Assembly: GCA_002839645.1 (NCBI GenBank) | Contig: PGYL01000038.1 | Span: forward strand, 1 to 32,024 | Reading direction: 5' to 3' | From: Methanomicrobiales archaeon HGW-Methanomicrobiales-2 | GTDB lineage: Archaea; Halobacteriota; Methanomicrobia; Methanomicrobiales; Methanoculleaceae | DNA: 32,024 bases | Shown: positions 6,613 through 31,841 of the stretch, in pieces | Layout: the number at the start of each line of letters is the position of its first letter | Position numbering within the stretch: position 1 is the stretch's first letter | The notes under the pieces: model-generated | The model's input: the letters and a program-made list of their open reading frames with translations, nothing else | Database searches by the model: none | Told to the model about the DNA's origin: nothing | Translations under genes and position numbers: made by a program

Positions 6613-8244
6613 ATGGTGGATCTCGATCCTGATACAAAGGAGAATATTGCCCGTGCGCTGTGGATGAGCGAATACACGCCAGAATCGATCCCGCCGGACG
6701 TCATGAACCGATTGGGTGATGCGAAAAACAACCGAACGGCATTCGGGGAGCGGATGCGGCGGCGGCTTGCCGACCTGTTAGCCAACCCCGAACGGTTCAC
6801 TCCCGATTACACCGATCGTTACACTATGCTCTGCAACCATGCTCGTGAGCTCTCAGCACACCAGGCCTATGCCATGACAGGCCTCCTCGGCCAGGACAGC
6901 GTACGGGGGTACCAGGAGCTGCCTCCACAGATCGCATTCACGTTTCCGGACGACGACCGGCCGCAGTTCCCGTACCAGGTCGGATGGCACTTCTTCGTGG
7001 GAACGGCGTCCGATGTTCATGGCCGGGAGTTCGGCATCCAGTTCATGTTCTGGAGTTACTCCCTGCTCCCGCCCGATATGGCCCGGAGCGAGGGCCTGAG
7101 CGATGTAGAGAACCAGGTCGCCGAGGTCCATCTGGCCGTAACTCCGGCAGGCGATCGGCATTATCGGCCGAGGCCCGTCCTCGTGGCGGGCACCACGGGC
7201 CTGATCCAGTTTACAGAGAAGCCGTACGAGTATGCCATCGGAAAGAACACCATAACCTCGCTTGACGGCGACTCGTTCTTCCCCGTCCGCCTGCAGGCGT
7301 GGGGTATCGATGACCGGGAAGACGTCCCGGTGGAGATCGCTGTTGATATCACCCTTCACCAGACCAAAGGCTATGTCCTGAACGGGGATGAAGGCCTGGC
7401 ACCCAGTTGCGGCGGTGTCGGCACGCTCTACTACTCTGTCCCGAATCTCCGGATACAACCCGAGGAGAGCTGGCTTTCCATCGACGGAACCCGGATCCCG
7501 CTCACCAGCGGAAAGTTCTGGTACGATCACCAGTGGGGCACCGGCTTCATACCTTCAGGAAGCCCGCGAAGCGACGTGTTGCGTGCAGTCGGGCTCTTCA
7601 ATGAGCAGAATCCCGGGGGATGGGACTGGATGGAGATCCAGTTCGACGACGAGACTGAGATCGCCCTCTCCTCGCTCCATACCAACGATAAGCGAGCGTT
7701 CTATTCCCGGACCGGGGCAGAACCGCCGGGCACGATGGCTGCAGGTGCAAAAGGCCTGTATATCCGGCAGGACGGGGAGTACGAACCGATCAACGCCGGC
7801 ATCCGGGTGACCGATTGGGTCCGGAGCGTGGTAGCTGACGGTCCGTACCTGGCCACCGATACCTGGTACCCGAATCGCATGGAAGTGACGGTGCAGGAGA
7901 ACGCGGTTCCGGATGAGAAGAAGCATTTCGTGATGGTGCCGATCGTAACAACCGGGCAGCAGGGATTTTTTGCAGCGGGTCCCCAGTATTCCGAAGGCGC
8001 AGTCATCATCGAGTCTGCAGACGGGAAGAGAATGGGGGTCGGCTTTCTGGAATCTACCGGCTACGTCGATGCCCGGAGGCAGAGCCTGCTTCTCGCGGGT
8101 CTGCCCGATGCCGACGAGATGGTTCGGCTCGTCTCTCCGCCCGCGGTTCCGGATAGCATGAAGGCTGAGGCGATGGCATTGTTGAAAGAGCCGGAGAACG
8201 TCTCAAAGCTCATGGAGGAACTGGCGAAGTGCAAGGGGCTCTGA
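6613..8244 (+). CDS. AttH/CrtC-like lipocalin-domain protein
   Basis: A 543-residue protein without a signal peptide. An N-terminal helical region (1-100) precedes two tandem beta-barrel-like domains. The first (about 110-300) contains QVGWHFFVGTASDVHGREFG and a Phe/Trp-rich FMFWSYSLLP strand; the second (about 300-500) contains KFWYDHQWGTG and WMEIQFDDETEI. These are hallmarks of the AttH / CrtC (hydroxyneurosporene synthase, COG5621) superfamily. In bacteria CrtC hydrates carotenoids; most other members have no proven activity. No carotenoid gene is nearby, so carotenoid chemistry should not be assumed. It has its own TATA promoter and a hairpin after its stop, so it is probably monocistronic. 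Confidence 0.75.
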   Translation: MVDLDPDTKENIARALWMSEYTPESIPPDVMNRLGDAKNNRTAFGERMRRRLADLLANPERFTPDYTDRYTMLCNHARELSAHQAYAMTGLLGQDSVRGYQELPPQIAFTFPDDDRPQFPYQVGWHFFVGTASDVHGREFGIQFMFWSYSLLPPDMARSEGLSDVENQVAEVHLAVTPAGDRHYRPRPVLVAGTTGLIQFTEKPYEYAIGKNTITSLDGDSFFPVRLQAWGIDDREDVPVEIAVDITLHQTKGYVLNGDEGLAPSCGGVGTLYYSVPNLRIQPEESWLSIDGTRIPLTSGKFWYDHQWGTGFIPSGSPRSDVLRAVGLFNEQNPGGWDWMEIQFDDETEIALSSLHTNDKRAFYSRTGAEPPGTMAAGAKGLYIRQDGEYEPINAGIRVTDWVRSVVADGPYLATDTWYPNRMEVTVQENAVPDEKKHFVMVPIVTTGQQGFFAAGPQYSEGAVIIESADGKRMGVGFLESTGYVDARRQSLLLAGLPDADEMVRLVSPPAVPDSMKAEAMALLKEPENVSKLMEELAKCKGL

Positions 8245-8246
8245 GT

Positions 8247-8276
8247 TCATCCGGCCGGCCCTCCGGCCCGGAACTG
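8247..8276 (+). terminator. GC-rich hairpin after the lipocalin gene
   Basis: An imperfect inverted repeat, GTTCATCCGGCCGG / CCGGCCCGGAAC with a CCCT loop, starts directly after the stop. There is no T-run beyond a short TTATTTGT, so it may be an mRNA 3' stem and not a strict terminator. Confidence 0.35.
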
Positions 8277-8451
8277 CACGTTATTTGTACAACTGCTGCG
8301 GAGATCACGTTCCGTCTCCCACCCGGCGATGCAGATCCCATCCCATGAGAGGGCAGCATCAGCGAATCTTCTTGATGGAACCGGGTAGTGAGGAGGAGAG
8401 ACGTTGAGCACGCCAAAGCCGTTTCTCGGTGTGCTGCACCAGGAGGTCTTT

Positions 8452-8736
8452 TCAGGTGATCGTCCCGAAGGCCGTGGTGACCGGACCGCTGGGCCGGACT
8501 GGAAACGGTCGCCCCTCATTGTGCCGGGCCTCGATACCATCGCGAGCTGCAGGAAGGGCCAGTACCGCGCCCGTGAGACGGTTCCGGAGTACCGCATCCA
8601 CCAGACCGACGACCGGGCGGATCGAGACCTCTTCGCACCCGGTGCAACGGTCGTGCAGATCGACGGTGAACCCGGCGTTCTCCAGCAGTCTCCGCCCAAC
8701 ATCCGCACCGGATAGATGGATATGCTCCTCCGGCAT
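8452..8736 (-). CDS. Hypothetical 94-residue protein
   Basis: A frame with genome-like codon use (GC-rich third positions) encoding MPEEHIHLSGADVGRRLL, a CTGCEE segment and a C-terminal hydrophobic/Pro-rich part (LTGAVLALPAARDG). No family is recognised. The ribosome binding site is weak (GGGAG about 13 bases upstream). It is the only plausible gene in the 8245-9017 interval, which otherwise holds the usp promoter. Confidence 0.33.
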   Translation of the reverse strand: MPEEHIHLSGADVGRRLLENAGFTVDLHDRCTGCEEVSIRPVVGLVDAVLRNRLTGAVLALPAARDGIEARHNEGRPFPVRPSGPVTTAFGTIT

Positions 8737-8965
8737 CGCGCTGTTCTTCTCCCGGCCGGAGCGGGAGCACCGGTAGGAACGACTTTCCGGGGGACAGGAG
8801 CATGAGAAGATCTCTGGTCTCCGGGTAACTCTCGACGGTCAGCACCGGGGCCGGCGGGGTGGTGGCGGTGCTCGGCGGAGGGTGAGGATCGTTCTGCCTG
8901 CGAACCGCAGGACAAAAACCCGGTGCGGTGGACCGACACCCAGCTCGCCTGTAGGTTCTAAACGA

Positions 8966-8981
8966 TATCTTTTAAATATCC
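8966..8981 (+). promoter_or_regulatory. TATA-type promoter for the usp gene
   Basis: The AT-rich ATCTTTTAAATATCC stretch lies about 40-45 bases before the ATG at 9018. A GGAGTGAG ribosome binding site is at 9001-9008. Confidence 0.6.
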
Positions 8982-9017
8982 GACCCGCAGAGAGAGCACC
9001 GGAGTGAGTGCCAGAGC

Positions 9018-9491
9018 ATGTTCGAACGCATCGTCTTTCCAACGGACTTTTCAGAACCCTCGATGAAGGTGCTGGGCTACATCCCCGCACTCAAGGAGGC
9101 GGGAACCCGGGAGGTGGTCCTCGTCCACGTCATCGACTCAAAGGACGTCACGCTGATCGCCTCGGGGGGGCAGGGGTTCCTCGGGACCGTGCCCGACCAG
9201 GAGACCGAGACCCAGAGCGAGTTGCGCCAGGAGATCGAGCACCGGATCCTCGATACCCGGCGGGCGCTCGAGAAGCAGGGCGTGAAGGTGACCGTCCGGA
9301 CGCCTGTGGGCAGCCCGGGAAAAGAGGTCGTGGCTGCAGCAGACGCAGAAGGGGCCTCGCTCATCGTCATCGGTTCCCACGGCAGATCGAACCTCCGCGA
9401 CCGCCTGCTCGGGACGGTCTCGGAGTACGTGATCAAGAATGCCCATCAGCCGGTCCTGGTCATCAAGCGGGACCTGATTGCCGGGAGATAA
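9018..9491 (+). CDS. Universal stress protein (UspA family)
   Basis: A 157-residue single Usp domain. It opens with RIVFPTDFSEPS (strand 1 and the nucleotide-contacting Asp) and ends with the ATP-binding signature GSHGRSNLRDRLLGTVSEYV (G-x2-G-x9-G-[ST]), so it belongs to the ATP-binding subgroup. The usual C-terminal strand is PVLVIK. Usp proteins are cytoplasmic dimers linked to stress survival; no specific partner is visible here. It is transcribed alone from a clear TATA promoter and converges on the PH-domain gene, only 31 bases away. Confidence 0.95.
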   Translation: MFERIVFPTDFSEPSMKVLGYIPALKEAGTREVVLVHVIDSKDVTLIASGGQGFLGTVPDQETETQSELRQEIEHRILDTRRALEKQGVKVTVRTPVGSPGKEVVAAADAEGASLIVIGSHGRSNLRDRLLGTVSEYVIKNAHQPVLVIKRDLIAGR

Positions 9492-9496
9492 TTCCC

Positions 9497-9520
9497 CCCC
9501 ATTTTGCAGCAAAAATAAAG
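9497..9520. terminator. Possible bidirectional terminator
   Basis: The 31-base gap between two convergent stops holds ATTTTGC-A-GCAAAAAT, giving short T-runs on either strand. This is the usual archaeal signal between convergent genes. Confidence 0.45.
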
Positions 9521-9522
9521 GT

Positions 9523-10107
9523 CTATTTCTCCACCAGGATCTCCAGCAGCTTCCGGATCGCCCGCAGTTCTTCCACCGTCGCGTCGGCGGCCGGCAGCTC
9601 CTCCGGCTCGCCCCCGACCGCGACGGGAGTGGTCCTCCGCACGAAGTTCATGATCTTCTCCTGGAGGTCTTTTGGGTCCGCAATCCCGTTGAGGAGGATC
9701 TCCGCCTGTGCCTGGGCCGAGTAGCCGGCGGTCTGCACCCGGACCGCCGAGAAGGAGAAGAACCGCATCAGGGGGCCCTGGGCGATATCGACGTTCGTGA
9801 TCCGGTTGTAGGGGACGATCCCCGTCTGGCGGAACCAGACTCCCCGCTGCCAGGTGATCTCGGTGACAGTGAGCCGGTAGACGACGCTCCCGTAGTAGAG
9901 GGGGATCCAGTAGGCGACGAAGACGATGACGGCAAGGACGGGTAGTGCGATGGCGAGAGCGACGAAGCCCCAGGTGAAGACGACGATGGGAATCAGCCAG
10001 GGCAGGATGAGGACGACGACGGTCAGGACCAGGGACGCGTAGAGGTACGACCGGAACCGCGGCACCGGTTTGAACGCCTCGCCTATGCGGAGCGGGGTGA
10101 GGGACAT
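9523..10107 (-). CDS. Membrane PH-domain (YdbS/bPH2-like) protein
   Basis: A 194-residue protein with two transmembrane segments (about 22-42 and 46-68) followed by a bacterial-type PH domain (about 75-150: VVYRLTVTEITWQRGVWF, then the conserved IPY/VPYNRITNVDI motif). A cytoplasmic helical tail (165-194) ends in a Leu/Arg/Glu-rich segment. PF03703-type proteins occur widely in membranes without a defined reaction. It follows the GNAT gene with a 15-base gap on the same strand, so the two probably share a transcript. Confidence 0.85.
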   Translation of the reverse strand: MSLTPLRIGEAFKPVPRFRSYLYASLVLTVVVLILPWLIPIVVFTWGFVALAIALPVLAVIVFVAYWIPLYYGSVVYRLTVTEITWQRGVWFRQTGIVPYNRITNVDIAQGPLMRFFSFSAVRVQTAGYSAQAQAEILLNGIADPKDLQEKIMNFVRRTTPVAVGGEPEELPAADATVEELRAIRKLLEILVEK

Positions 10108-10122
10108 ATTATCACACCAATC

Positions 10123-10602
10123 TCAGTCCGGACAGATTAAGCCTTCCCGGCCGGCGAGATCCCTCCGGAGGATGTGGCGATCGGCGCCCTCACCGAAGTA
10201 GGCCGGGCAAAAATCCGTCTCCCGAAAACCGTGCTTCTCGTAGAGCGCACGGGCGGACCGGTTTTGCGGCGCAACCGAGAGGTAGACCTCCCCCGCCCCC
10301 CGCTCCCGGAGGCTGCCGGTGACGGCGGCAACGAGGCTCCCCCCGAGTCCGCGGCGCCGGTACCGCTCCGCCACCACCAGCCGGACGATCCATCCCGTCT
10401 CCAATCGGTGCTGCACGAGAGCACCGATGGTGTAGCCGACGACGTTTCCGTCACATTCCGCGATGAGAAACGTATCGGCAAAGAGGACGCCGGCCTGCCG
10501 GATGAAGACCTCGGGCTTGCAGTCCCCCGGGCTGTTCTCCCGCTCGAGGGCAGAGACCGAACGAAAATCCTCTTCGCGATACCCTCTGATTACCAGGTCC
10601 AT
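10123..10602 (-). CDS. GNAT family N-acetyltransferase
   Basis: A 159-residue GNAT fold. Beta-4/alpha-3 carry the acetyl-CoA binding loop VAERYRRRGLGGSL (R-x2-G-x-G type), followed by VAPQNRSARALYEKHGFRE, the classic motif B of RimI-like enzymes. The N-terminus IRGYREEDFRSV is typical. Resemblance to RimI suggests a protein N-terminus or small amine as acceptor, but the substrate cannot be read from the sequence. It is the first gene of a probable two-gene unit with the PH-domain protein. Confidence 0.9.
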   Translation of the reverse strand: MDLVIRGYREEDFRSVSALERENSPGDCKPEVFIRQAGVLFADTFLIAECDGNVVGYTIGALVQHRLETGWIVRLVVAERYRRRGLGGSLVAAVTGSLRERGAGEVYLSVAPQNRSARALYEKHGFRETDFCPAYFGEGADRHILRRDLAGREGLICPD

Positions 10603-10683
10603 ACCGGTGTATTCGCCGTAAAGGCTAAAAATAGGCAGCGGCCCCGGGCGGCTTCCATCCCGGAGCGCTCTTGATCCACAGGC

Positions 10684-10887
10684 TCACTTCTTGCCCGCTT
10701 TGAGCATGTCGCGCGCCATCTCGTACGTCTCGATCTTGTACTTCATCAACTCGAGGTGCTGCTGCTTCATCTTGATGCGGGACTCGATCATCCGAATCGT
10801 CAGCTGCCGCATCTGGTCCTCGTCAAGAAGATCGCGCATCTTCTCAAGGAGCATGCCGTGGGCGGCTCCTCCGCCGTAATGTGTCAT
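10684..10887 (-). CDS. Small coiled-coil protein, 67 residues
   Basis: Starts at the ATG at 10887 (MTHYGGGAAHGMLL), which has a GAGGAGG site 9 bases upstream; a longer frame from 10935 lacks one. After a Gly-rich start the protein is a single long charged helix (residues 15-65: MRQLTIRMIESRIKMKQQHL, then KYKIETYEMARDML), likely a coiled coil. No family is recognised and there are no cysteines or membrane segments. A TATA-like stretch at 10952-10963 suggests it has its own promoter. Confidence 0.65.
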   Translation of the reverse strand: MTHYGGGAAHGMLLEKMRDLLDEDQMRQLTIRMIESRIKMKQQHLELMKYKIETYEMARDMLKAGKK

Positions 10888-10950
10888 GCCATTAACCCTC
10901 CTCACACGGGCCGGTCCACAGGGACAGGCCGGCACCCTGTGCTCACGGGG

Positions 10951-10965
10951 TCATAAATATCTTAT
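10951..10965 (-). promoter_or_regulatory. TATA-like promoter for the coiled-coil gene
   Basis: On the minus strand the sequence CATAAGATATTTATGA stands out from GC-rich flanks, about 65 bases before the chosen ATG. Confidence 0.4.
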
Positions 10966-10980
10966 GGCAGGTACGGCTGC

Positions 10981-11349
10981 TCACCGGGAGGCCATGAATG
11001 CTCCGCCGTGTTCGGCCCAGTTCTCGACCGGCGGCTCGTAGAGGACGATACAGACGTCGTCGGGGCGAACTCCCGCATCACAGGCCAGGTGCTCCACGAT
11101 CGCCCGATAGAGCGCCTCTTTCGTCGCGGGCTCTCGCCCCGGCATGAGCGAGATCTCGATGAGGACCGCGTCGCTGGAACGACCGGGAGGCATCGGGAAG
11201 TTCTCCTCTTTTCGCTCGCAGAGCCGGATCCAGAGGGCGGCCTCCGGGGTCTGCAGGGTATCTACAAAAGCCTCACGGAGACTTTCGATAAGCAATTGCC
11301 GGTAAGCAACAGGCTTTCCGGTGCGGATCTCGATCTTGACAAGCGGCAT
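10981..11349 (-). CDS. Tautomerase (4-oxalocrotonate tautomerase-like) protein
   Basis: A 122-residue protein starting MPLVKIEIRTGKP. Removal of Met would expose the catalytic Pro1 of the tautomerase superfamily, and this decides the start over the longer frame from 11496. The ATG has a GGAGA site about 10 bases upstream. A second region (DAVLIEISLMPGREPATKEALY) matches the superfamily's repeated beta-alpha-beta, so this looks like the longer two-unit form. Its physiological substrate is unknown. It lies 91 bases downstream of the NifD-like gene and may be cotranscribed. Confidence 0.75.
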   Translation of the reverse strand: MPLVKIEIRTGKPVAYRQLLIESLREAFVDTLQTPEAALWIRLCERKEENFPMPPGRSSDAVLIEISLMPGREPATKEALYRAIVEHLACDAGVRPDDVCIVLYEPPVENWAEHGGAFMASR

Positions 11350-11440
11350 GCGGACATCTCTCCAGCGGCAGAGCGGGGATCCGGGCGAACCCCCGTTCTC
11401 CTGCAGGAGTGCTCTGGCACCGGGAGTGATAACGCTTTGC

Positions 11441-12607
11441 TCAGGAGAGGTCCAGCGGCTCGCCCTCCGGGCGCCGGTTTTTGTTGATGCAGGCATTGAG
11501 CACCTCGTCCATCAGCCAGAGCGCCCCTTCGATCCCGGCCACTGCCCGGGACGAGAGGAGGACCCTGCCCCGGAGCGGCGATGTCAGCCCGACGAATGCG
11601 GCGCCGGGGGAGATCGCCCGCTCGTAGGAGGAGCCGAGGATCAGGTCCGGTTCGGCGTCAAGGATCATCCCCCGGATGACCGAGAAGTCGGTCGTAGAGG
11701 TGACGGCATCGTTGCAGACACCGGGATCGTTCCGGGCGGCGACGCAGGCGATATCGGCACCGAGGTACCGGTCGAGGAGTTCAGCGGCAAACGCGGCATA
11801 CGAGTACCCGGCAGAGATTGCCACCCGGGGCGGGTCGAACCTCTTGAGGTACTTGTCGCAGGCCTTCTTGATCCGGGCCTCGGCCCATGCGATCTCCGCC
11901 GTGACCGGGCGGATATCGACGCCGTCGATCTCGGCGGCAAGTCTCTCGAAGGTCCCGGCGACGGCATCGAGGCCCAGGAGCGAGCCGCAGGCCGTCCCGA
12001 CGCCGCTCGCGAGGTCCGGGTTCGTGCCGACGGTGAGGGGCGCCGCACGGTGAGCCGCAGCGTAGCGGTCCAGGCAGAACGTGGTTGCGGCGGCTGTCCC
12101 GGCGAGATTAAGGAGGCGCCGCGCCTCGATGGCGTTCCCCCGGCAGAAAGGGTCGGTGCGGCAGATGCCGTCGATGTTGACGCCGGCGGCACCGGGGTCC
12201 ACCTCCGGCGCGACCCGCTCAAGCGCCCGGCGGTATCCGGCCTCGAAATCCCCGAGGAAGCCCGGGCTGTCGACGACGAGGACCTGCCCGTCGCGGGCGA
12301 AGTCGCCGATATCCTCGCCCATGATGGCGGGCACGCAGGTGTTGACCACGGCTATCCGGGTGTTTTGGCCGTCGAGTTCCCGGATCACCTCCGTGAGGCG
12401 GGACTCCGTGCCGAAGATGATCTCGTTCTCGACGAGAAACGTCCCGTAAATGGGGACCCCGACGAGCGATGCGGGGTAGAAGTAGCAGCCGCTCGAACCG
12501 TGGACGATGACGGCAAGGTCCTCGAACCCCGCGAGGCAGGCGACCGCCCCGGTCATCGCACAGGGCCAGAGCGGGTTCTCGCACGGCGTACGCTGGTTGT
12601 TTTGCAT
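11441..12607 (-). CDS. Nitrogenase component 1-like (NifD-type) oxidoreductase
   Basis: A 388-residue protein of the nitrogenase component 1 family (PF00148). The three cysteines that hold the P-cluster side of NifD have counterparts: Cys16 in NPLWPCAMTGAV, Cys41 in VHGSSGCYFYP and Cys91 in VNTCVPAIMGEDI. Later Rossmann-like segments (PRVAISAGYSYA; DLILGSSYE) fit the fold. It is about the size of CfbD (coenzyme F430 biosynthesis) but its N-terminus does not read like typical CfbD. No NifH- or NifK-like partner is in the window. It may be a homomeric enzyme using a NifH/CfbC encoded elsewhere to reduce a tetrapyrrole or other substrate (inference). A TATA box 30 bases upstream implies a nearly leaderless mRNA. 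Confidence 0.82.
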   Translation of the reverse strand: MQNNQRTPCENPLWPCAMTGAVACLAGFEDLAVIVHGSSGCYFYPASLVGVPIYGTFLVENEIIFGTESRLTEVIRELDGQNTRIAVVNTCVPAIMGEDIGDFARDGQVLVVDSPGFLGDFEAGYRRALERVAPEVDPGAAGVNIDGICRTDPFCRGNAIEARRLLNLAGTAAATTFCLDRYAAAHRAAPLTVGTNPDLASGVGTACGSLLGLDAVAGTFERLAAEIDGVDIRPVTAEIAWAEARIKKACDKYLKRFDPPRVAISAGYSYAAFAAELLDRYLGADIACVAARNDPGVCNDAVTSTTDFSVIRGMILDAEPDLILGSSYERAISPGAAFVGLTSPLRGRVLLSSRAVAGIEGALWLMDEVLNACINKNRRPEGEPLDLS

Positions 12608-25157: not shown

Positions 25158-26024
25158 TCAGAAAGCCGCAACGACCCCGGGACCCGGGGGAGCGCGGACG
25201 TCCGCGAGCAGCTCGTCGAGCGTGTCCACGTATTTCACCTGGATGCCGAGGTTCTCCTCGATATACTCTTTCGCATCAGTGACGACCGGCCGCTGCCTTG
25301 CTATCTTCAGTCCGCCGAACGACCGGCCCTCCTCCTGATAATCGATCACCTGGTCGTTCTCGTCGGAGAGGATCAGGAGCGTCTTCCCGCTTGCTGCTGC
25401 AGCCTCGGCCTTCTCGAGGATTCCCCCGACCGGGCCGATGCTCCCGCTCTCATCGATGGACCCCGTCACCGTCACGCTCTGGTTGAGCTCGAACCCCTCC
25501 AGCACCGAGATGAGCAGCGTGGCCATCAGCGCCCCGGCACTGGGGCCGTCGATCTCCGAGACCTCCTCCGGGCCCTGGATGCTGAAGATGATGTCGCTAC
25601 CTGCAAAGTCCACGCGGGAGTGGTTGGCGGCGACAACGACCGCAAGGTTCGCGGCATCCTGGAAGGCTATCCCCATCAGGGGTGTTGTCTGGACGAGCAC
25701 CCTTCCTTTTCCGGGCACGATCTCAACCGAGACATTCACCATCGCCCCCTCTTCGGTCACCTCCTCATAGAGGAGCGGGCTCCCCCGCTCAACCTCGACC
25801 ATCTGGAGGATGACCGGCACCTGCATCGAGGCCACACTCCCGTTCCCTGCTCCCTCGGGAGGGAGAGGGCTCAGGGTCGCCGTCGGGATCGCATCAGCCC
25901 CTCCGGGCCTGGAGAGGGGCGGGGAGAGACCACTTTGCGGCATGAGAACGACGGCCAGAAAGAAGACGTTCGCGACAAGCGATAAAACAAGCAGAACCGT
26001 CAGGGTCTTCTCCCGTATACGCAT
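25158..26024 (-). CDS. Membrane-anchored Lon-type (S16) serine protease without ATPase
   Basis: A 288-residue protein: a transmembrane anchor at 8-29, a linker rich in Pro/Ser, and an S16 protease domain at about 95-235. The catalytic dyad is Ser162 (EIDGPSAGAL) and Lys205 (GGILEKAEAA), 43 residues apart as in bacterial Lon. There is no AAA+ ATPase domain. The anchor followed by the protease places the active site outside the cytoplasm (inference), so unfolding power would be absent and the substrate probably exported or peptide-like. The start at 26024 (MRIREKTL) is chosen because a TATA box lies only about 25-35 bases upstream; longer frames would pass through it. It shares orientation with the PsbP-like gene. 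Confidence 0.85.
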   Translation of the reverse strand: MRIREKTLTVLLVLSLVANVFFLAVVLMPQSGLSPPLSRPGGADAIPTATLSPLPPEGAGNGSVASMQVPVILQMVEVERGSPLLYEEVTEEGAMVNVSVEIVPGKGRVLVQTTPLMGIAFQDAANLAVVVAANHSRVDFAGSDIIFSIQGPEEVSEIDGPSAGALMATLLISVLEGFELNQSVTVTGSIDESGSIGPVGGILEKAEAAAASGKTLLILSDENDQVIDYQEEGRSFGGLKIARQRPVVTDAKEYIEENLGIQVKYVDTLDELLADVRAPPGPGVVAAF

Positions 26025-26048
26025 ATGCTGCCCGAATACCATGCATTT

Positions 26049-26060
26049 GGATATATACCT
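26049..26060 (-). promoter_or_regulatory. TATA box of the S16 protease gene
   Basis: The minus-strand AGGTATATATCC lies 25-36 bases before the ATG at 26024, giving an almost leaderless transcript. Confidence 0.6.
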
Positions 26061-26069
26061 TTCCGAGCG

Positions 26070-26200
26070 CGATGTTCCGAAGGAACGGAGCGGGAGCACC
26101 GCGAGATGCGACTTGCGACTGGCGCGAGCATTGCGAGCGGCAGGAGCTTGAGAAGACCGAAGGTCTTCGAGTGGCGACGGGACGAATGCGGCTGCCGGGT
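26070..26200. repeat. Intergenic element with two GAA-loop hairpins
   Basis: No gene. Two perfect hairpins share the same GAA loop: GTTCC-GAA-GGAAC at 26074-26086 and GAAGACC-GAA-GGTCTTC at 26152-26168. Between them GCGAG/GAGC words recur (GCGAGATGCGAC, GCGCGAGCATTGCGAGCGG). This resembles a dispersed structured intergenic repeat; the hairpin at 1324-1343 has a similar C-GAA loop. Only a genome-wide search can say whether it is repeated. Confidence 0.4.
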
Positions 26201-26404: not shown

Positions 26405-27526
26405 ATGACCAGAACCAGTTACGTGCTCTGTGCACTCATCATCGCAGCCGGCATGCTCTGTTGCGGCTGCACGACTACGACCGGGACGCCGGACGATCCG
26501 GCTGCCCCGGCAGGAACCCGGACGATCACCGATATGGAGGGTCACCAGATCGTGCTCCCCGCCAGCGGAGCAACCTTCGGTATCTTCGGCGGCCCCATCA
26601 GCCAGGTGCCCTACCTCCTTGGAGCGAACGAGAGCATCACCGCAGTCACGAAAGGACCGCAGATGATGGAGATGATGCAGCAGATGGACCCGGGCATTGC
26701 CAGCAAACCAGCGCCGCGGACGACAAACGGCAACGTGAACATTGAGCAACTCCTGGTTACCAACCCCGACTGCGTCATTGCCTTCGACGTCGACGGCGAG
26801 ATCGTGGAGTCGCAAACAGACATCCCGGTCATCTACCTCTCCGGGACCATGAGCGACGGGTTTGAAGAGATACGGCAGGAGATCGTCTTCATGGGCGAGG
26901 TCTTCCAGAGACCTGAACGGGCACAGGCCTACATCGATTACCTGGATGAGACCCTCGCGTTCCTCGAGAATCGTACCGCGGACATCCCCGACGATGAGCG
27001 AGTCACCGTCTTCCTGGGCGAAGGCGTAAGCCACCTCCAGACGCTCGGGGGCGACACGTTCTTCACCGAGTGGACCGAGGCCGCGGGATGCAGAAACGCC
27101 GTCGCTGCCATCGAGACCACCCAGGGACAGCAGGAAGGGATGCACACCGGCATCAATGAGGTTTCGATGGAGCAGGTCCTTGCCGTCGATCCCGGCCTCA
27201 TCATCATCGATGCCAGCAACCCCGCCGATCTCGCGAAGGACAACCGCTGGAAGGAACTCACCGCCGTCAAAGAAGGCAGAATCTACAAGCAGCCGACCGG
27301 GCTCTTCCTCTGGAGCCGCCCGTCCGCCGAGTCCGCCGTTCTCTACCCGGTCTGGATTGCATATATGGCCTATCCCGACCGCTTCGCCGACGTCCCGCTC
27401 ACCGACCGGGTGAAGGACTTCTACACCGAAGTCTTCGAGTTCCCCATCACTGATGCGCAGGCGCAGAAGGTCATCGACGGCGCCTACGGAAGCGTAACGT
27501 TCGGTCAGGTGCAGCAGTCCAGATGA
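26405..27526 (+). CDS. Iron/cobalamin-type ABC importer, substrate-binding lipoprotein
   Basis: A 373-residue exported lipoprotein. The signal ends in a Cys-rich lipobox (GMLCCGC, modified Cys probably 22). The mature part is a class III (PF01497, FecB/BtuF/TroA-like) binding protein: RTITDMEGHQIVLP at its start, a first lobe with VNIEQLLVTNPDCVIAF, a connecting helix (AYIDYLDETLAFLENRT) and a second lobe with EQVLAVDPGLIIIDAS. The fold binds ferric chelates, haem, cobalamin or related tetrapyrroles; the ligand cannot be told. The last gene of the operon carries a domain similar to its C-terminal ~250 residues. Its stop overlaps the permease start (ATGA). Confidence 0.9.
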   Translation: MTRTSYVLCALIIAAGMLCCGCTTTTGTPDDPAAPAGTRTITDMEGHQIVLPASGATFGIFGGPISQVPYLLGANESITAVTKGPQMMEMMQQMDPGIASKPAPRTTNGNVNIEQLLVTNPDCVIAFDVDGEIVESQTDIPVIYLSGTMSDGFEEIRQEIVFMGEVFQRPERAQAYIDYLDETLAFLENRTADIPDDERVTVFLGEGVSHLQTLGGDTFFTEWTEAAGCRNAVAAIETTQGQQEGMHTGINEVSMEQVLAVDPGLIIIDASNPADLAKDNRWKELTAVKEGRIYKQPTGLFLWSRPSAESAVLYPVWIAYMAYPDRFADVPLTDRVKDFYTEVFEFPITDAQAQKVIDGAYGSVTFGQVQQSR

Positions 27527-28638
27527 GACCGAAGACAATAGGCGCCAAGAGTGCGTATGTTGACGTTGGAGGAGCACCGGCGGCCAGGACGGCAACGACC
27601 GAACCGGGTCAGGCTGACGACCGGGGCTGGGGAGAGCGGCACCCGGGCACCGTCCTGGTCTTCCTCCTCGCCGTGCTCGGGATCGTTGCGTTTGCCGCCC
27701 TGATGCTCGGGCGGTATATCATCCCGCCAGAGACGGTGGCAGCGGTGATCCTGGGTTCTGTCCTCCCGATCGAGGAAACCTGGTCGTCAACGGCAGCCAG
27801 TGCCGTCGTGAATGTCCGGATCCCCCGGATCATCGCCGGACTGCTCGTCGGAGCCGGCCTCGCCATCAGCGGAGCCTCGTTCCAGGGGATGTTCCGAAAC
27901 CCCCTGGTCTCTTCGCAGATCCTTGGCGTGGCCGCCGGAGCGGGTTTCGGGGCGGCGATCGGCATCCTTCTCTTCGACAGCCTTGCCGTCGTCCAGATCC
28001 TCTCGTTCGTCTTCGGCCTCCTCGCCGTGGGGATGGCCTACGGCCTCAGCCGGGTCAGGAGCTCGACCCCGATCCTGATGCTCGTTCTCTCAGGCATCGT
28101 GATCGCGTCGCTCTTCTCGGCCCTCACCTCGATGGTGAAGTACGTGGCCGACCCGATGAACAAGATGCCGGCGATTGTCTTCTGGCTGCTGGGGTCGCTC
28201 AACCACGTCTCGACATCGGACCTGCTGGTCCTCGGTCCGATCATAGCGGTCTCGATCCTGGGGCTACTTGCCGTTCGGTGGCGGATAAACGTCCTCACCA
28301 TGGGCGATGAAGAGGCGCGGGCGCTCGGGGTGAACACCGAGCGCCTGAAAGTCATAATCATCCTCCTCGCGACGGTGATCACCGCGGCGGCGGTCTGCAT
28401 GAGCGGGATCATAGGATGGATCGGGCTCGTCATCCCGCATATGGGGCGGATGCTTGTCGGGCCGGACAACCGCTACCTCCTGCCGATCTCAGTGCTCCTT
28501 GGCGGAGCATTCCTGATCGCCGTCGACACCGTTGCGAGGACGGCAGCTCCCGCCGAGATACCCATCGGCATCCTGACCGCGATCATTGGAGCGCCGATCT
28601 TCGCGATACTCCTCCGGCGCAACAACCCGGGGTGGTGA
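27523..28638 (+). CDS. FecCD/BtuC-type ABC importer permease
   Basis: A 371-residue polytopic protein with about ten hydrophobic segments beginning near residue 45 and a hydrophilic N-terminal stretch before them. Family motifs include NVRIPRIIAGLLVGAGLAIS-G, FQGMFRNPL, the cytoplasmic coupling region around GDEEARALGV (contact with the ATPase), and VCMSGIIGWIGLVIPHMGR. These identify the FecCD family (PF01032), which imports siderophores, haem or cobalamin as a dimer. The start overlaps the binding-protein stop; the stop is followed after two bases by the ATPase start. Confidence 0.94.
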   Translation: MRPKTIGAKSAYVDVGGAPAARTATTEPGQADDRGWGERHPGTVLVFLLAVLGIVAFAALMLGRYIIPPETVAAVILGSVLPIEETWSSTAASAVVNVRIPRIIAGLLVGAGLAISGASFQGMFRNPLVSSQILGVAAGAGFGAAIGILLFDSLAVVQILSFVFGLLAVGMAYGLSRVRSSTPILMLVLSGIVIASLFSALTSMVKYVADPMNKMPAIVFWLLGSLNHVSTSDLLVLGPIIAVSILGLLAVRWRINVLTMGDEEARALGVNTERLKVIIILLATVITAAAVCMSGIIGWIGLVIPHMGRMLVGPDNRYLLPISVLLGGAFLIAVDTVARTAAPAEIPIGILTAIIGAPIFAILLRRNNPGW

Positions 28639-28640
28639 GC

Positions 28641-29444
28641 ATGCGCAGCATCAGCGTAGAAGGTATAACATTCAATTATCCAGGCAGAAGAGCAGTCTTT
28701 ACGGAGATCACGCTTGCGGTGGAGGAAGGGGACGTATACTCCCTTCTCGGCCCGAACGGCACCGGAAAGTCCACGCTCCTCAAGTGCATGGCCGGGCTCA
28801 TCTCTCCCTCGCAAGGCCGCATCCTCCTCGATGGGAGGGAGATCACCGGGATGCAGCCATACGAGATAGCCCGGCGGGTTGGGTTCGTTCCCCAGACACA
28901 GGTCTCGCCGTTCCCGTTCCGGGTCAGGGATATCGTCCTGATGGGCAGGGCATCGCACCTCAATGCCTTTGCAACCCCATCGGCAAAAGACGATGCCATC
29001 GCTGCCGACGCCCTTGCGCACGTCGGGATCTCTCACCTTGCCGACCGGCCATGCACCGCGATCAGCGGGGGCGAGTGGCAACTGGTCCTGATCGCCCGGG
29101 CAATTGCACAGCGCCCAAGAACCCTTCTCCTCGACGAACCGACGTCGCACCTGGACCTCGGCAACCAGATGCGGGTGCTCGACGTAATCAGGGGGCTCGC
29201 AGAAGAAGGAATGACCATTGTTGTTGCGACACATTTCCCCGATCATGCGCTTTTGACGTCAAGCAGGGTCGCAATCCTGAAAGATCAAAGAATCATCGCC
29301 ATGGGGTCCCCCGATGTGGTTATCCGCGAAGACACCATGCGCCAGGCCTATGGGACGGACGTCAGGATCATGCACCTCGGCGACCCGATCAACCGGCGGA
29401 TCTGCGTGCCGGTGGCTGAGGCGTTCCAGAGAGGAGAACTATGA
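28641..29444 (+). CDS. FepC/BtuD-type ABC importer ATPase
   Basis: A 267-residue nucleotide-binding subunit: Walker A GPNGTGKSTLL, Q-loop VPQTQVSPFPF, signature ISGGEWQL (Trp in place of the usual charged/Gln position), Walker B TLLLDEPTSHLD and H-loop VATHFPDHA. It ends with the long C-terminal tail usual for this subfamily. It powers the permease encoded just upstream. The start is the ATG at 28641; a longer open frame upstream lies inside the permease gene. Its end overlaps the methyltransferase start by four bases (ATGA). Confidence 0.94.
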   Translation: MRSISVEGITFNYPGRRAVFTEITLAVEEGDVYSLLGPNGTGKSTLLKCMAGLISPSQGRILLDGREITGMQPYEIARRVGFVPQTQVSPFPFRVRDIVLMGRASHLNAFATPSAKDDAIAADALAHVGISHLADRPCTAISGGEWQLVLIARAIAQRPRTLLLDEPTSHLDLGNQMRVLDVIRGLAEEGMTIVVATHFPDHALLTSSRVAILKDQRIIAMGSPDVVIREDTMRQAYGTDVRIMHLGDPINRRICVPVAEAFQRGEL

Positions 29445-30082
29445 CAGAACAATCACACGACCAGTTTACCGGCAAAGGAGCCGGAAGTATGGATGCCATC
29501 GCAAAAGGGCCGTTTGCACCGATATATCCGGTCATCGCCCGGCAGGCCATCGATACCTGCGACATTACCGAGGGCAGATGCGTCGATATCGGGTGCGGGC
29601 CCGGACATCTTGCAATGGCGCTCGGCGCCGCAAGCAACCTCAGTATCGATGCTCTTGACTCATCAAACGACATGCTTGCCATTGCACGGCAGAATATCCA
29701 GGAAGCCGGGCTCACCGACCAGATACACCCGGTCTGCGGCGACGTTCACGACCTCCCCTACGATGACAACTCCATTGACCTGGTCGTGAGCCGTGGCTCA
29801 TTCTTCTTCTGGGATGACCGCGTTCGGGCATTCCAGGAGATCTACCGGGTGCTCCGGCCCGGTGGGAGGACGTTCGTCGGCGGCGGGTTCGGGACTCCGG
29901 CTCTGAAGGCGGAGATCACGGAGAAGATGCGGGTCATCGACCCGGAGTGGGAGGTGAAGGCCGCAGGGCGGCTTGCCCCGAAGAACAAGGACGCTATACG
30001 CCGTGACCTGGAGAAGACGGGAATCTCGCCCTATGAGATCCACGAGGACGGGGCCGGATTCTGGGTCATCATGCGGAAGTGA
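29441..30082 (+). CDS. Class I SAM-dependent methyltransferase
   Basis: A 213-residue cytoplasmic enzyme with the Rossmann SAM site: motif I VDIGCGPGHLA (about 48-58), the acidic end of strand 2 (DALDSSNDML), motif II/III around CGDVHDLPYDDNSIDLV, and post-III IYRVLRPGGRTFVGGG (type 11 methyltransferase family, PF08241). The N-terminus is polar (QFTGKGAGSMDAI) and could form the acceptor pocket. Because it is translationally coupled to the importer ATPase and followed 7 bases later by a radical SAM gene, its substrate is probably the imported compound or a ligand made for it (inference). The exact acceptor is unknown. Confidence 0.9.
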   Translation: MTEQSHDQFTGKGAGSMDAIAKGPFAPIYPVIARQAIDTCDITEGRCVDIGCGPGHLAMALGAASNLSIDALDSSNDMLAIARQNIQEAGLTDQIHPVCGDVHDLPYDDNSIDLVVSRGSFFFWDDRVRAFQEIYRVLRPGGRTFVGGGFGTPALKAEITEKMRVIDPEWEVKAAGRLAPKNKDAIRRDLEKTGISPYEIHEDGAGFWVIMRK

Positions 30083-30089
30083 TCGAAGG

Positions 30090-31841
30090 ATGCGATGCAC
30101 CATATGTGAGGTAGGGTGCGAGATCCCACCCGGAGGAACGGGGAGATGCCGGATGTACCGAAACGACGGGACCTTCCTCGTCGAACGGTTCCCGGATGCC
30201 TTTCTCGCCGCCTTCCCCGTCGCCGTCGAAACGCTCCCGGTGCTGCACTTCTACCCCGGCGCGAAGTTCCTCCAGGTCTGCACGGTCGGCTGCAACCTCG
30301 CATGCGGCGGGTGCGTCTCGGAGATCCTCGTCGGGCATGCCGATTCGCTTGCAGCCACCGGGGAGGCCCTCGGCCCCGACGACCTGCTCCGCCTTGCGGC
30401 CGAGAACGCCTGTACCGGGATCGCCTTCGCCCTGAACGACCCGATCGCCTCCTTCCCGACGTTCTGCCGTCTCGCAGAGAGGGCAAGAGAAGAAGGCCTC
30501 CTCGTCGGTTGCTCCACGAACGGCTACATGACCGAATCGTCCGCCCTGCACCTCCGTGACCGGATAGACTTCGTCAATATCGGGCTCAAGGGTGCGACCG
30601 ACGCGAGTTACCGTGCCTGTGGGGCAAAGAGCGCCGGACCGGTCTTCCGGACGGTCCGGCTGCTTCATGAGGGAGGGGTGCACGTCGAGGCCTCCGTCGT
30701 CTACCGGCGGAGTGGTGAAGATGAGGTGATCGACGCGGCACGGATGCTCGCGGCAATCTCCCCCGATATCCCCCTGCAGGTGATGCGGTTCGTTCCCTTC
30801 GGCGACGCGGGGCTCGGCGAGGAGCCGACGATCTACGCGAGCGAGGAACTCTGCGACCGCCTTCGCGGCATCCTCCCCTGGGTCTACCTCTTCAACTCAC
30901 CGGGGACAACGCACCTGACGACCTTCTGCCCGGCCTGCGGGAAGCCCTGTATCGAGCGTGAGTTCTTCGGCCCGATGGGCTCCCACCTCTCCGGGCAGGC
31001 GCAGGCAGTCTGTACGTGCGGCCATGCCCTCCCGGTCCGGGGTGCCGTGAGCCCCACGGTCTTTTACGAACCCGGGATGATGGGCGGGTACCGGGTCACC
31101 CGGGGGCTCGAGATGGTCTGGGCAATCCTCGCCTGCCTCGGCGTGGAGGAACAGGCGGTCCTCGCCCGCACCTGGGGCGAAGTTCTCCGGACCGGGATGC
31201 TCGGGAAGGAGCTGCACGACCGGATGAACAACATCGATGCCTACCTCGATCTCATCACGGACTTCGCGCACCGGACGGGCCGCGAGGAGGCCGGACGGGA
31301 CCTCTGCACCTACATCCGGAAACGGCTGGACTTCATCCGGGGACAGGTGGCGGGTGCGCCACGGCCCCGGGTCTACTACGCCATGGGCCACCCGCTCTTT
31401 GCCATCAATCCCGGCCGGTTCGAGGGAAAACTCGTAGAGGCTGCCGGCGGCACCTACGTCAACCTGGCCATAGGCCGGGAGGGGAAACCGGGCGTCAGCA
31501 TACCCCGTGAGGAGTTCCTTGCGCTCGCGCCCGAGTATCTCTTCACGTCGGGGTTCCTCACCTCCACGGTGGAGGACACCCTCCGTTACTGCACGGAGCA
31601 CGACCTCGATGTGCCGGCGGTCCAGAACGGGCGGGTCTACTCGATGCACCCATCCTGGGACTTCGGGAGCCCCCGGGGGATCCTCGGCCTGATGACGATC
31701 GCAAACGTCCTCCACCCCGACCTCTTCGCCTTTGAGATCGAGAAGGAGGCGGAGATCTTCTACCGTCGCTTTTACGGGGTGCCGTACCGGGCCGCCGACG
31801 CCAACCGTTCGTTTGCCCACCCGGGAACGGAGTGGCGGTAG
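30090..31841 (+). CDS. Radical SAM enzyme fused to a binding-protein-like domain
   Basis: A 583-residue fusion. Residues 1-25 hold an accessory Cys cluster (C3, C6, C10, C20; ICEVGCEIPPGGTGRC). PVLHFYPGAKFLQ then leads to the radical SAM motif C68-x3-C72-x2-C75 (CNLACGGC), all as in PflA/AmmeMemoRadiSam-type enzymes. A zinc-ribbon-like region (FCPACGKPC near 278, CTCGH near 308) follows. Residues about 325-583 resemble the operon's own binding protein: RVYYAMGHPLFAINPGRFEG, EFLALAPEYLFTSG, VQNGRVYSMHPSWDF and DLFAFEIEKEAEIFYRRFYG align with its second half. There is no signal peptide, so the domain acts in the cytoplasm, perhaps holding the imported cofactor for radical chemistry. The start is the ATG at 30090, 7 bases after the methyltransferase stop. 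Confidence 0.88.
   Translation: MRCTICEVGCEIPPGGTGRCRMYRNDGTFLVERFPDAFLAAFPVAVETLPVLHFYPGAKFLQVCTVGCNLACGGCVSEILVGHADSLAATGEALGPDDLLRLAAENACTGIAFALNDPIASFPTFCRLAERAREEGLLVGCSTNGYMTESSALHLRDRIDFVNIGLKGATDASYRACGAKSAGPVFRTVRLLHEGGVHVEASVVYRRSGEDEVIDAARMLAAISPDIPLQVMRFVPFGDAGLGEEPTIYASEELCDRLRGILPWVYLFNSPGTTHLTTFCPACGKPCIEREFFGPMGSHLSGQAQAVCTCGHALPVRGAVSPTVFYEPGMMGGYRVTRGLEMVWAILACLGVEEQAVLARTWGEVLRTGMLGKELHDRMNNIDAYLDLITDFAHRTGREEAGRDLCTYIRKRLDFIRGQVAGAPRPRVYYAMGHPLFAINPGRFEGKLVEAAGGTYVNLAIGREGKPGVSIPREEFLALAPEYLFTSGFLTSTVEDTLRYCTEHDLDVPAVQNGRVYSMHPSWDFGSPRGILGLMTIANVLHPDLFAFEIEKEAEIFYRRFYGVPYRAADANRSFAHPGTEWR

Follow-up and report, generated by a model that had tools for sequence, protein, structure and literature searches.

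A protein of 583 residues encoded by a methanogen-type archaeon joins a radical SAM enzyme to half of a class III substrate-binding protein (SBP). The binding-protein half lacks the N-lobe and has altered pocket residues, and the fused proteins form one well-supported clade, spread over methanogen-type archaea and Desulfosarcina-type (sulfate-reducer-type) bacteria, in which the fusion is kept together with an importer and a methyltransferase. Class III binding proteins are usually regarded as extracytoplasmic ligand carriers, and we found no description of this architecture in the open-access literature searched. The window, meaning the whole stretch of DNA analysed, comprises 32,024 nucleotides of Methanomicrobiales archaeon HGW-Methanomicrobiales-2. 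In it the fusion is the last gene of a five-gene run ordered SBP, FecCD permease, ATPase, methyltransferase, fusion:

26405..27526, + strand: class III substrate-binding lipoprotein of the importer, 373 aa (PF01497, E 1.7e-19)
27523..28638, + strand: permease, FecCD/BtuC type (PF01032, E 2.1e-84)
28641..29444, + strand: ATPase of the importer, FecE/BtuD type (PF00005, E 8e-33), with its start set at the ATG at 28641; the longer open reading frame is 28416-29444
29441..30082, + strand: class I SAM-dependent methyltransferase, UbiE-like, 213 aa (PF08241, E 2.7e-25)
30090..31841, + strand: radical SAM/binding-protein fusion, 583 aa, ATG at 30090 (PF04055 and PF01497)

Upstream, on the - strand at 25158-26099, lies a gene judged by eye to encode a Lon/S16-protease-like protein with a membrane anchor.

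A radical SAM enzyme joined to half a binding protein

Intact fused open reading frames are present in many unrelated genomes, which rules out an assembly or annotation artefact as the source of the fusion. Its parts are as follows:

30096..30149, + strand: N-terminal Cys cluster C3-C6-C10-C20, invariant in 35 relatives
30279..30743, + strand: radical SAM core, residues 64-218 (PF04055, E 2.3e-9)
30291..30314, + strand: CX3CX2C cluster motif C68-C72-C75, invariant in 35 relatives
30927..31019, + strand: Cys knuckles C280, C283 ... C310, C-terminal in the radical SAM part, invariant in 35 relatives
31092..31220, + strand: helical connector, residues 335-377, where the binding-protein N-lobe would be (AlphaFold2 secondary structure)
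31221..31805, + strand: SBP-derived backbone helix and C-lobe, residues about 378-572 (hhalign, Foldseek and HMM search of PDB sequences)

By its sequence, with a CX3CX2C motif inside a PF04055 domain, the fusion belongs to the radical SAM superfamily, and a Radical_SAM Pfam match was obtained for 34 of 35 aligned relatives. The sequence-only reading of this DNA had proposed such a domain, carrying C68-C72-C75 and an extra Cys cluster, and the family match and the invariance of these cysteines bear it out. Foldseek comparison of the N-terminal part with the PDB returned pyruvate formate-lyase activase (8fo0, E 8.5e-7) and NifB (7jma, E 3e-6). Among curated families the best NCBIfam match is AmrS (AmmeMemoRadiSam, TIGR04337). 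As in AmrS, Cys clusters flank the barrel at both ends, the CPxCG...CxxCG knuckle pattern recurs in the AmrS paralogue of the same genome and other AmmeMemoRadiSam enzymes, and identity is about 28-30%. However, the match reaches 100.8 bits against a cut-off of 220, and the fusions tested score 79-113 bits compared to 339 for the true AmrS paralogue of the host, which served as a positive control. The fusion also differs from AmrS in falling in a separate 100/100 clade, in its additional C-terminal binding-protein domain and in its linkage to an importer. The curated cut-off and the tree placement rule out that the fusion is itself AmrS. The TrsS/TrsM cassette found no match either: NF045646 was absent among the NCBIfam matches of the fusion, and the neighbouring methyltransferase scored 56 bits with NF045667 (TrsM), below the cut-off of 155.

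The C-terminal half matches Peripla_BP_2 (PF01497) at residues 383-521 (E 4.9e-8, 33.1 bits, cut-off 27.5), as do 28 of 35 relatives independently. Because the match covers profile positions 93-233 of 235, it represents the second part of the family only. When the profile of the fusion C-termini was aligned with that of the operon SBPs using hhalign, the two matched with a probability of 99.6% (E 5e-24, 189 columns), pairing residues of about 378-572 in the fusion with residues 148-354 of the SBP in the window. An AlphaFold2 model of the whole fusion, built from a 35-sequence alignment, has a pLDDT of 90.5 and a pTM of 0.90, and its Foldseek matches in the PDB include the class III binding proteins 4hn9 (E 7e-12), 4pag, 4ovk and 3psa. 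Modelled alone, the C-terminal part still matches 4hn9 (E 1e-11), with an rmsd of 2.0-2.1 A over about 190 residues and a TM-score by target of about 0.5, which upholds the expectation that this region would match class III binding proteins in structure. Chance likeness is ruled out by Pfam, hhalign and Foldseek together with the 28 of 35 relatives.

The likeness ends at the backbone helix. Residues 335-377 are predicted to be all-helical, lie outside the hhalign match and are not homologous to the N-lobe. A complete binding-protein fold is ruled out since the N-lobe is absent. Two lobes joined by a backbone helix were not found in the fusion, whose match begins at position 93 of 235 in the profile and at residue 148 in the SBP, and membership of the class III SBPs holds for the backbone helix and C-lobe only. 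The proposal that the C-terminal ~260 residues run parallel to the second half of the SBP encoded four genes upstream therefore stands for about 195 residues and not for the whole fold. The export signal expected of a class III SBP is likewise missing by inspection, as had been noticed from the sequence alone: the protein begins with a Cys cluster (MRCTICEVGC), unlike the SBP in the window, which carries a lipoprotein-type leader. The fusion resembles class III SBPs (BtuF/MolA/YiuA-type, PF01497) in its backbone helix and C-lobe by HMM, profile-profile and structural comparison, but differs from them in the missing signal peptide, the missing N-lobe and the residues of the pocket.

The pocket was compared in a merged alignment of 24 operon SBPs and 35 fusions. 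Residues invariant in the SBPs are replaced in the fusions: Glu206 by Met432 (35/35), Thr213 by Ala438 (29/35) and Arg305 by Ser or Asn527 (34/35), and Asn231 is lost. Glu256 in the C-lobe of the SBPs, which we take to be the permease-docking residue from its place in an SxEQ motif, has a Glu equivalent in just 17 of the 35 fusions. The conserved set peculiar to the fusions includes Met432, Ala438, Ser/Asn527, Asp524 and Arg529; invariant among them are Y430, M432, P435, F437, R443, E445, N458, G465, P467 and G468 and, further on, C501, W523-D524-F525-G526, P528-R529, N572 and F575. Judged from these alignments, the pocket of the fusion differs from that of the SBP and is not a copy of it. Given the replacement of SBP-invariant residues, a shared fold does not imply the same recognition chemistry.

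Distribution and genomic neighbourhood

Genomes were sampled from two phyla, the archaeal phylum of the host and the phylum of Desulfosarcina. A fusion with both domains is present in 32 of 247 genomes of an even sample of the former and in seven of 297 sampled genomes of the latter; named relatives recovered by the search for related loci are Methanoculleus, Methanolinea, Methanocalculus, Methanofollis and Desulfosarcina. A search of plasmids found AmrS alone and no fusion. In a maximum-likelihood tree built from the radical SAM portions, all fused sequences lie on one side of a 100/100 branch, and importer-linked unfused enzymes (100/98) and AmrS (100/100) form separate groups. The simplest reading of these sequences is a single origin of the fusion. 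When 60 genomes were searched with the profile of the fusion C-terminus, matches above about 105 bits were all fusions or fragments of them, followed by ordinary SBPs. Derivation of the domain from the operon's own SBP was first suggested by scores of 92-99 bits compared to at most 48 elsewhere. This idea was dropped when a wider search gave 94-98 bits outside fusion clusters (G037:C1, G017), and because of these similar scores we claim no such origin.

Several apparent disruptions of the gene were inspected. In-frame TAG codons were reported in some relatives of the same genus; the three loci checked (L079, L080 and L083) hold intact fusion open reading frames of 578 aa, so the reported stop sits at the end of the match. 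In genome G033 the fusion is truly interrupted, near residue 353, and separate radical SAM and binding-protein pieces in G159 (locus L060) look like the result of a frameshift in the Cys-knuckle region. At L060, two fusion genes face each other (8190-9927 and 9915-11642), the first broken by the apparent frameshift.

We compared 52 fusion loci with 40 control windows placed at round coordinates in the same genomes; the fusion loci are not independent, as several come from closely related genomes, and in some cases the contig stops a short way from the gene. A methyltransferase gene was found near the fusion at 45 of 52 loci compared to none of 40 control windows, and is a near-constant partner of the fusion. 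A FecCD permease was found at 36 of 52 compared to one of 40, and any importer component at 38 of 52. A fusion lying mostly apart from any importer, which the sequence-only reading had named as counting against its model, is thus not what these loci show, but no class III importer component lies within about 10 kb in 14 of 52. Among the unfused relatives in their separate clade, five of six loci have a class III importer alongside, which indicates that the link between enzyme and importer is not merely a by-product of fusion. At three AmrS-type loci (L064-L066), neither an importer permease nor an SBP was seen. Bacterial fusion loci of the Desulfosarcina phylum contain genes for TonB-dependent outer-membrane receptors (L101, L102, L103 and L108), and a TonB protein gene is present at another bacterial locus (L099). 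In the clusters with receptors, the pathway therefore begins with an external ligand that requires TonB.

The enzyme and the SBP are not evolving in step. Pairwise identities of the binding-protein domain correlate better with radical SAM identities (r = 0.95) than with SBP identities (0.59), and between the window and other operons (e.g., L069) the enzyme is about 70% identical compared to about 28% for the SBP. One interpretation is that the specificity of the importer may have changed while the enzyme stayed the same. The SBP at 26405-27526, about 28% identical to its counterparts where the enzymes are about 70% identical, points to a binding protein that has changed fast or been replaced.

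Other genes recur around these systems. A conserved protein of ~370-390 aa is encoded 3' of the radical SAM gene in the unfused, importer-linked systems, archaeal as well as bacterial (L061:9599-10915, L063:7422-8699, L105:9900-11060 and L106:7751-8914); the two copies scanned (L061 and L105) had no Pfam match, and the protein may be a functional counterpart of the fused domain. Tandem SBPs of about 670-770 aa, with two PF01497-type domains per exported chain, occur mainly in unfused systems, with one in a fused system (L061:6390-8672, L063:9634-11928, L062:12780-15104 and L076:248-2248). XRE-type regulators with a PBP_like domain (PF12727), together with ModA/ModB-type genes, stand beside bacterial fusions (L108:5349-6452, L101:11566-12678). 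Small P-loop proteins are encoded near other fusions (L101:8031-8732, L059:4715-5581 and L015:9411-10004); in Pfam searches, the one at L101 matched CobW/HypB and the one at L059 had no match.

Possible functions and ligands

We tentatively favor, at a little less than even probability, a model in which the fusion and the methyltransferase act in the cytoplasm as a SAM-dependent pair, modifying or stripping a metal chelate after its import, and in which the radical SAM barrel stands in for the missing lobe. The pair would work behind the class III importer, which in bacteria would be TonB-fed and whose cargo would be a metal chelate in short supply, resembling a siderophore, molybdophore or corrinoid. 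An AmmeMemoRadiSam/PflA-like radical SAM domain would then work in the cytoplasm with the helix and C-lobe of a MolA/YiuA-like class III protein: the half domain would present the whole ligand, or the part that bears the metal, to the barrel, which, in place of the N-lobe, would form the other wall of a putative composite pocket, an arrangement made attractive by the missing lobe. Finally, 5'-deoxyadenosyl radical chemistry and methylation by the partner would modify the organic ligand or break it, making the metal or cofactor available for use. Processing of a chelate after import would fit the importer linkage, the bacterial TonB receptors, the cytoplasmic location and the presence of two SAM-dependent enzymes, and both the order of the steps and the kind of ligand are presumptive. 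A more specific version, in which the barrel has replaced one lobe of the SBP and the protein holds the ligand between the radical site and the C-lobe, so that anaerobes would have an undescribed means of stripping a molybdenum or tungsten (or other rare-metal) chelate by radical chemistry after import, is doubtful. The model offered by the sequence-only reading, in which the enzyme would capture what the importer brings by the same fold, is plausible, as the fold match and the importer linkage agree with it. On the other hand, only half the fold is present, SBP-invariant residues are lost, enzyme and SBP diverge out of step, and at 14 of 52 loci an importer component is missing nearby.

Known systems offer partial parallels. 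In haem degradation by ChuW/HutW, an importer is paired with a radical SAM enzyme of the cytoplasm, which opens the chelate anaerobically once it has entered the cell, but these enzymes are of the HemN type and carry no binding-protein domain. Nitrogenase-like proteins (PF00148), which share the SCOP 'helical backbone metal receptor' superfamily with class III SBPs and work with NifB, provide a case of a cytoplasmic SBP-related fold acting with a radical SAM enzyme; in contrast, the domain described here is fused and derived from PF01497 by sequence, and no nitrogenase-like gene is constant in its loci. The MolBC-A molybdate importer (H. influenzae HI1470-1472) has a FecCD-type permease and an SBP related to those of the operons (3psa, E 3e-46), although we know of no radical SAM or methyltransferase partner for it.

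Alternatively, the radical SAM enzyme and the methyltransferase(s) could build a metallophore or the precursor of a metal-binding cofactor, with the half domain recognizing the product, either as such or complexed with metal, and the importer returning it in loaded form. We regard this as rather unlikely. The same clusters could serve it, and additional O-methyltransferase (PF00891) and DUF364 genes occur in six and eight of the 52 fusion loci, respectively, DUF364 being a family for which synthesis of flavin-, pterin- or siderophore-like chelators has been proposed (PMC2954201). However, no peptide synthetase, ligase or exporter recurs among the cluster families, and most loci consist of the methyltransferase, fusion and importer only, which is thin for a pathway.

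The identity of the ligand cuts across these models. Release of a molybdenum or tungsten compound by the pair for cofactor assembly is suggested by genes of ModA/ModB type, MoeA or formylmethanofuran dehydrogenase within about 10 kb of nine of 52 fusion loci compared to none of 40 random windows, mostly at loci without a class III permease (L013, L014, L015, L048, L086 and L108). This count is post hoc, since the marker profiles were built from loci where the genes had been noticed, two of the families (MoeA and formylmethanofuran dehydrogenase) were identified by eye rather than by family search, and the loci are not independent; it is therefore a lead and not a test, and the context points only weakly to these metals. 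A NifE/N-like gene pair lies near L059, and DUF364 co-occurs with iron, tungstate, vanadium and molybdate transporters (PMC2954201). The solved structures nearest the SBPs of the window and other operons are 4ovk (E 1e-26 with the SBP of the window) and 4pag, followed by 3psa and YiuA; 3psa, the third best, is H. influenzae HI1472, the molybdate-binding MolA. To our knowledge, 4pag and 4ovk, which are closer to the SBPs than MolA, have no known ligand. Moreover, bare molybdate would call for neither TonB nor a radical enzyme's chemistry, and handling of molybdenum or tungsten seems unlikely overall.

It is less probable still that a cobamide is imported and its ligands changed by the pair. The importer is BtuCDF-like with matches to BtuF, and at L104 a cobalamin riboswitch is accompanied by a CbiK/cobalamin synthesis operon (cobalt chelatase) downstream of the fusion, yet none of the other seven bacterial loci scanned has the riboswitch (one of eight positive), and as a relative BtuF ranks below 4hn9, 4pag, 4ovk and 3psa. 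Haem and F430, which had been suggested as ligands, find no specific support in the context data, where the weak hints are of molybdenum or tungsten (nine loci) and of cobalamin (one). That the substrate is a protein, such as a glycyl radical enzyme, and the half-lobe a docking module only has little probability: the radical SAM domain does match PflA and glycyl-radical activases, but the host genome has no PF02901 match and hence no PFL-type target for such an activase (control genomes were positive), the SBP is extracytoplasmic, and the AmrS paralogue is encoded separately and scores above the TIGR04337 cut-off, which the fusion does not reach.

The adjacency of the fusion to an importer suggests an undescribed anaerobic step in which a scarce metal compound is processed once it has been taken up. 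Should the enzyme act on the cargo of the importer, the ligand of the SBP would be the leading candidate for its substrate, and these archaea and bacteria would possess an undescribed anaerobic route of metal or cofactor acquisition.
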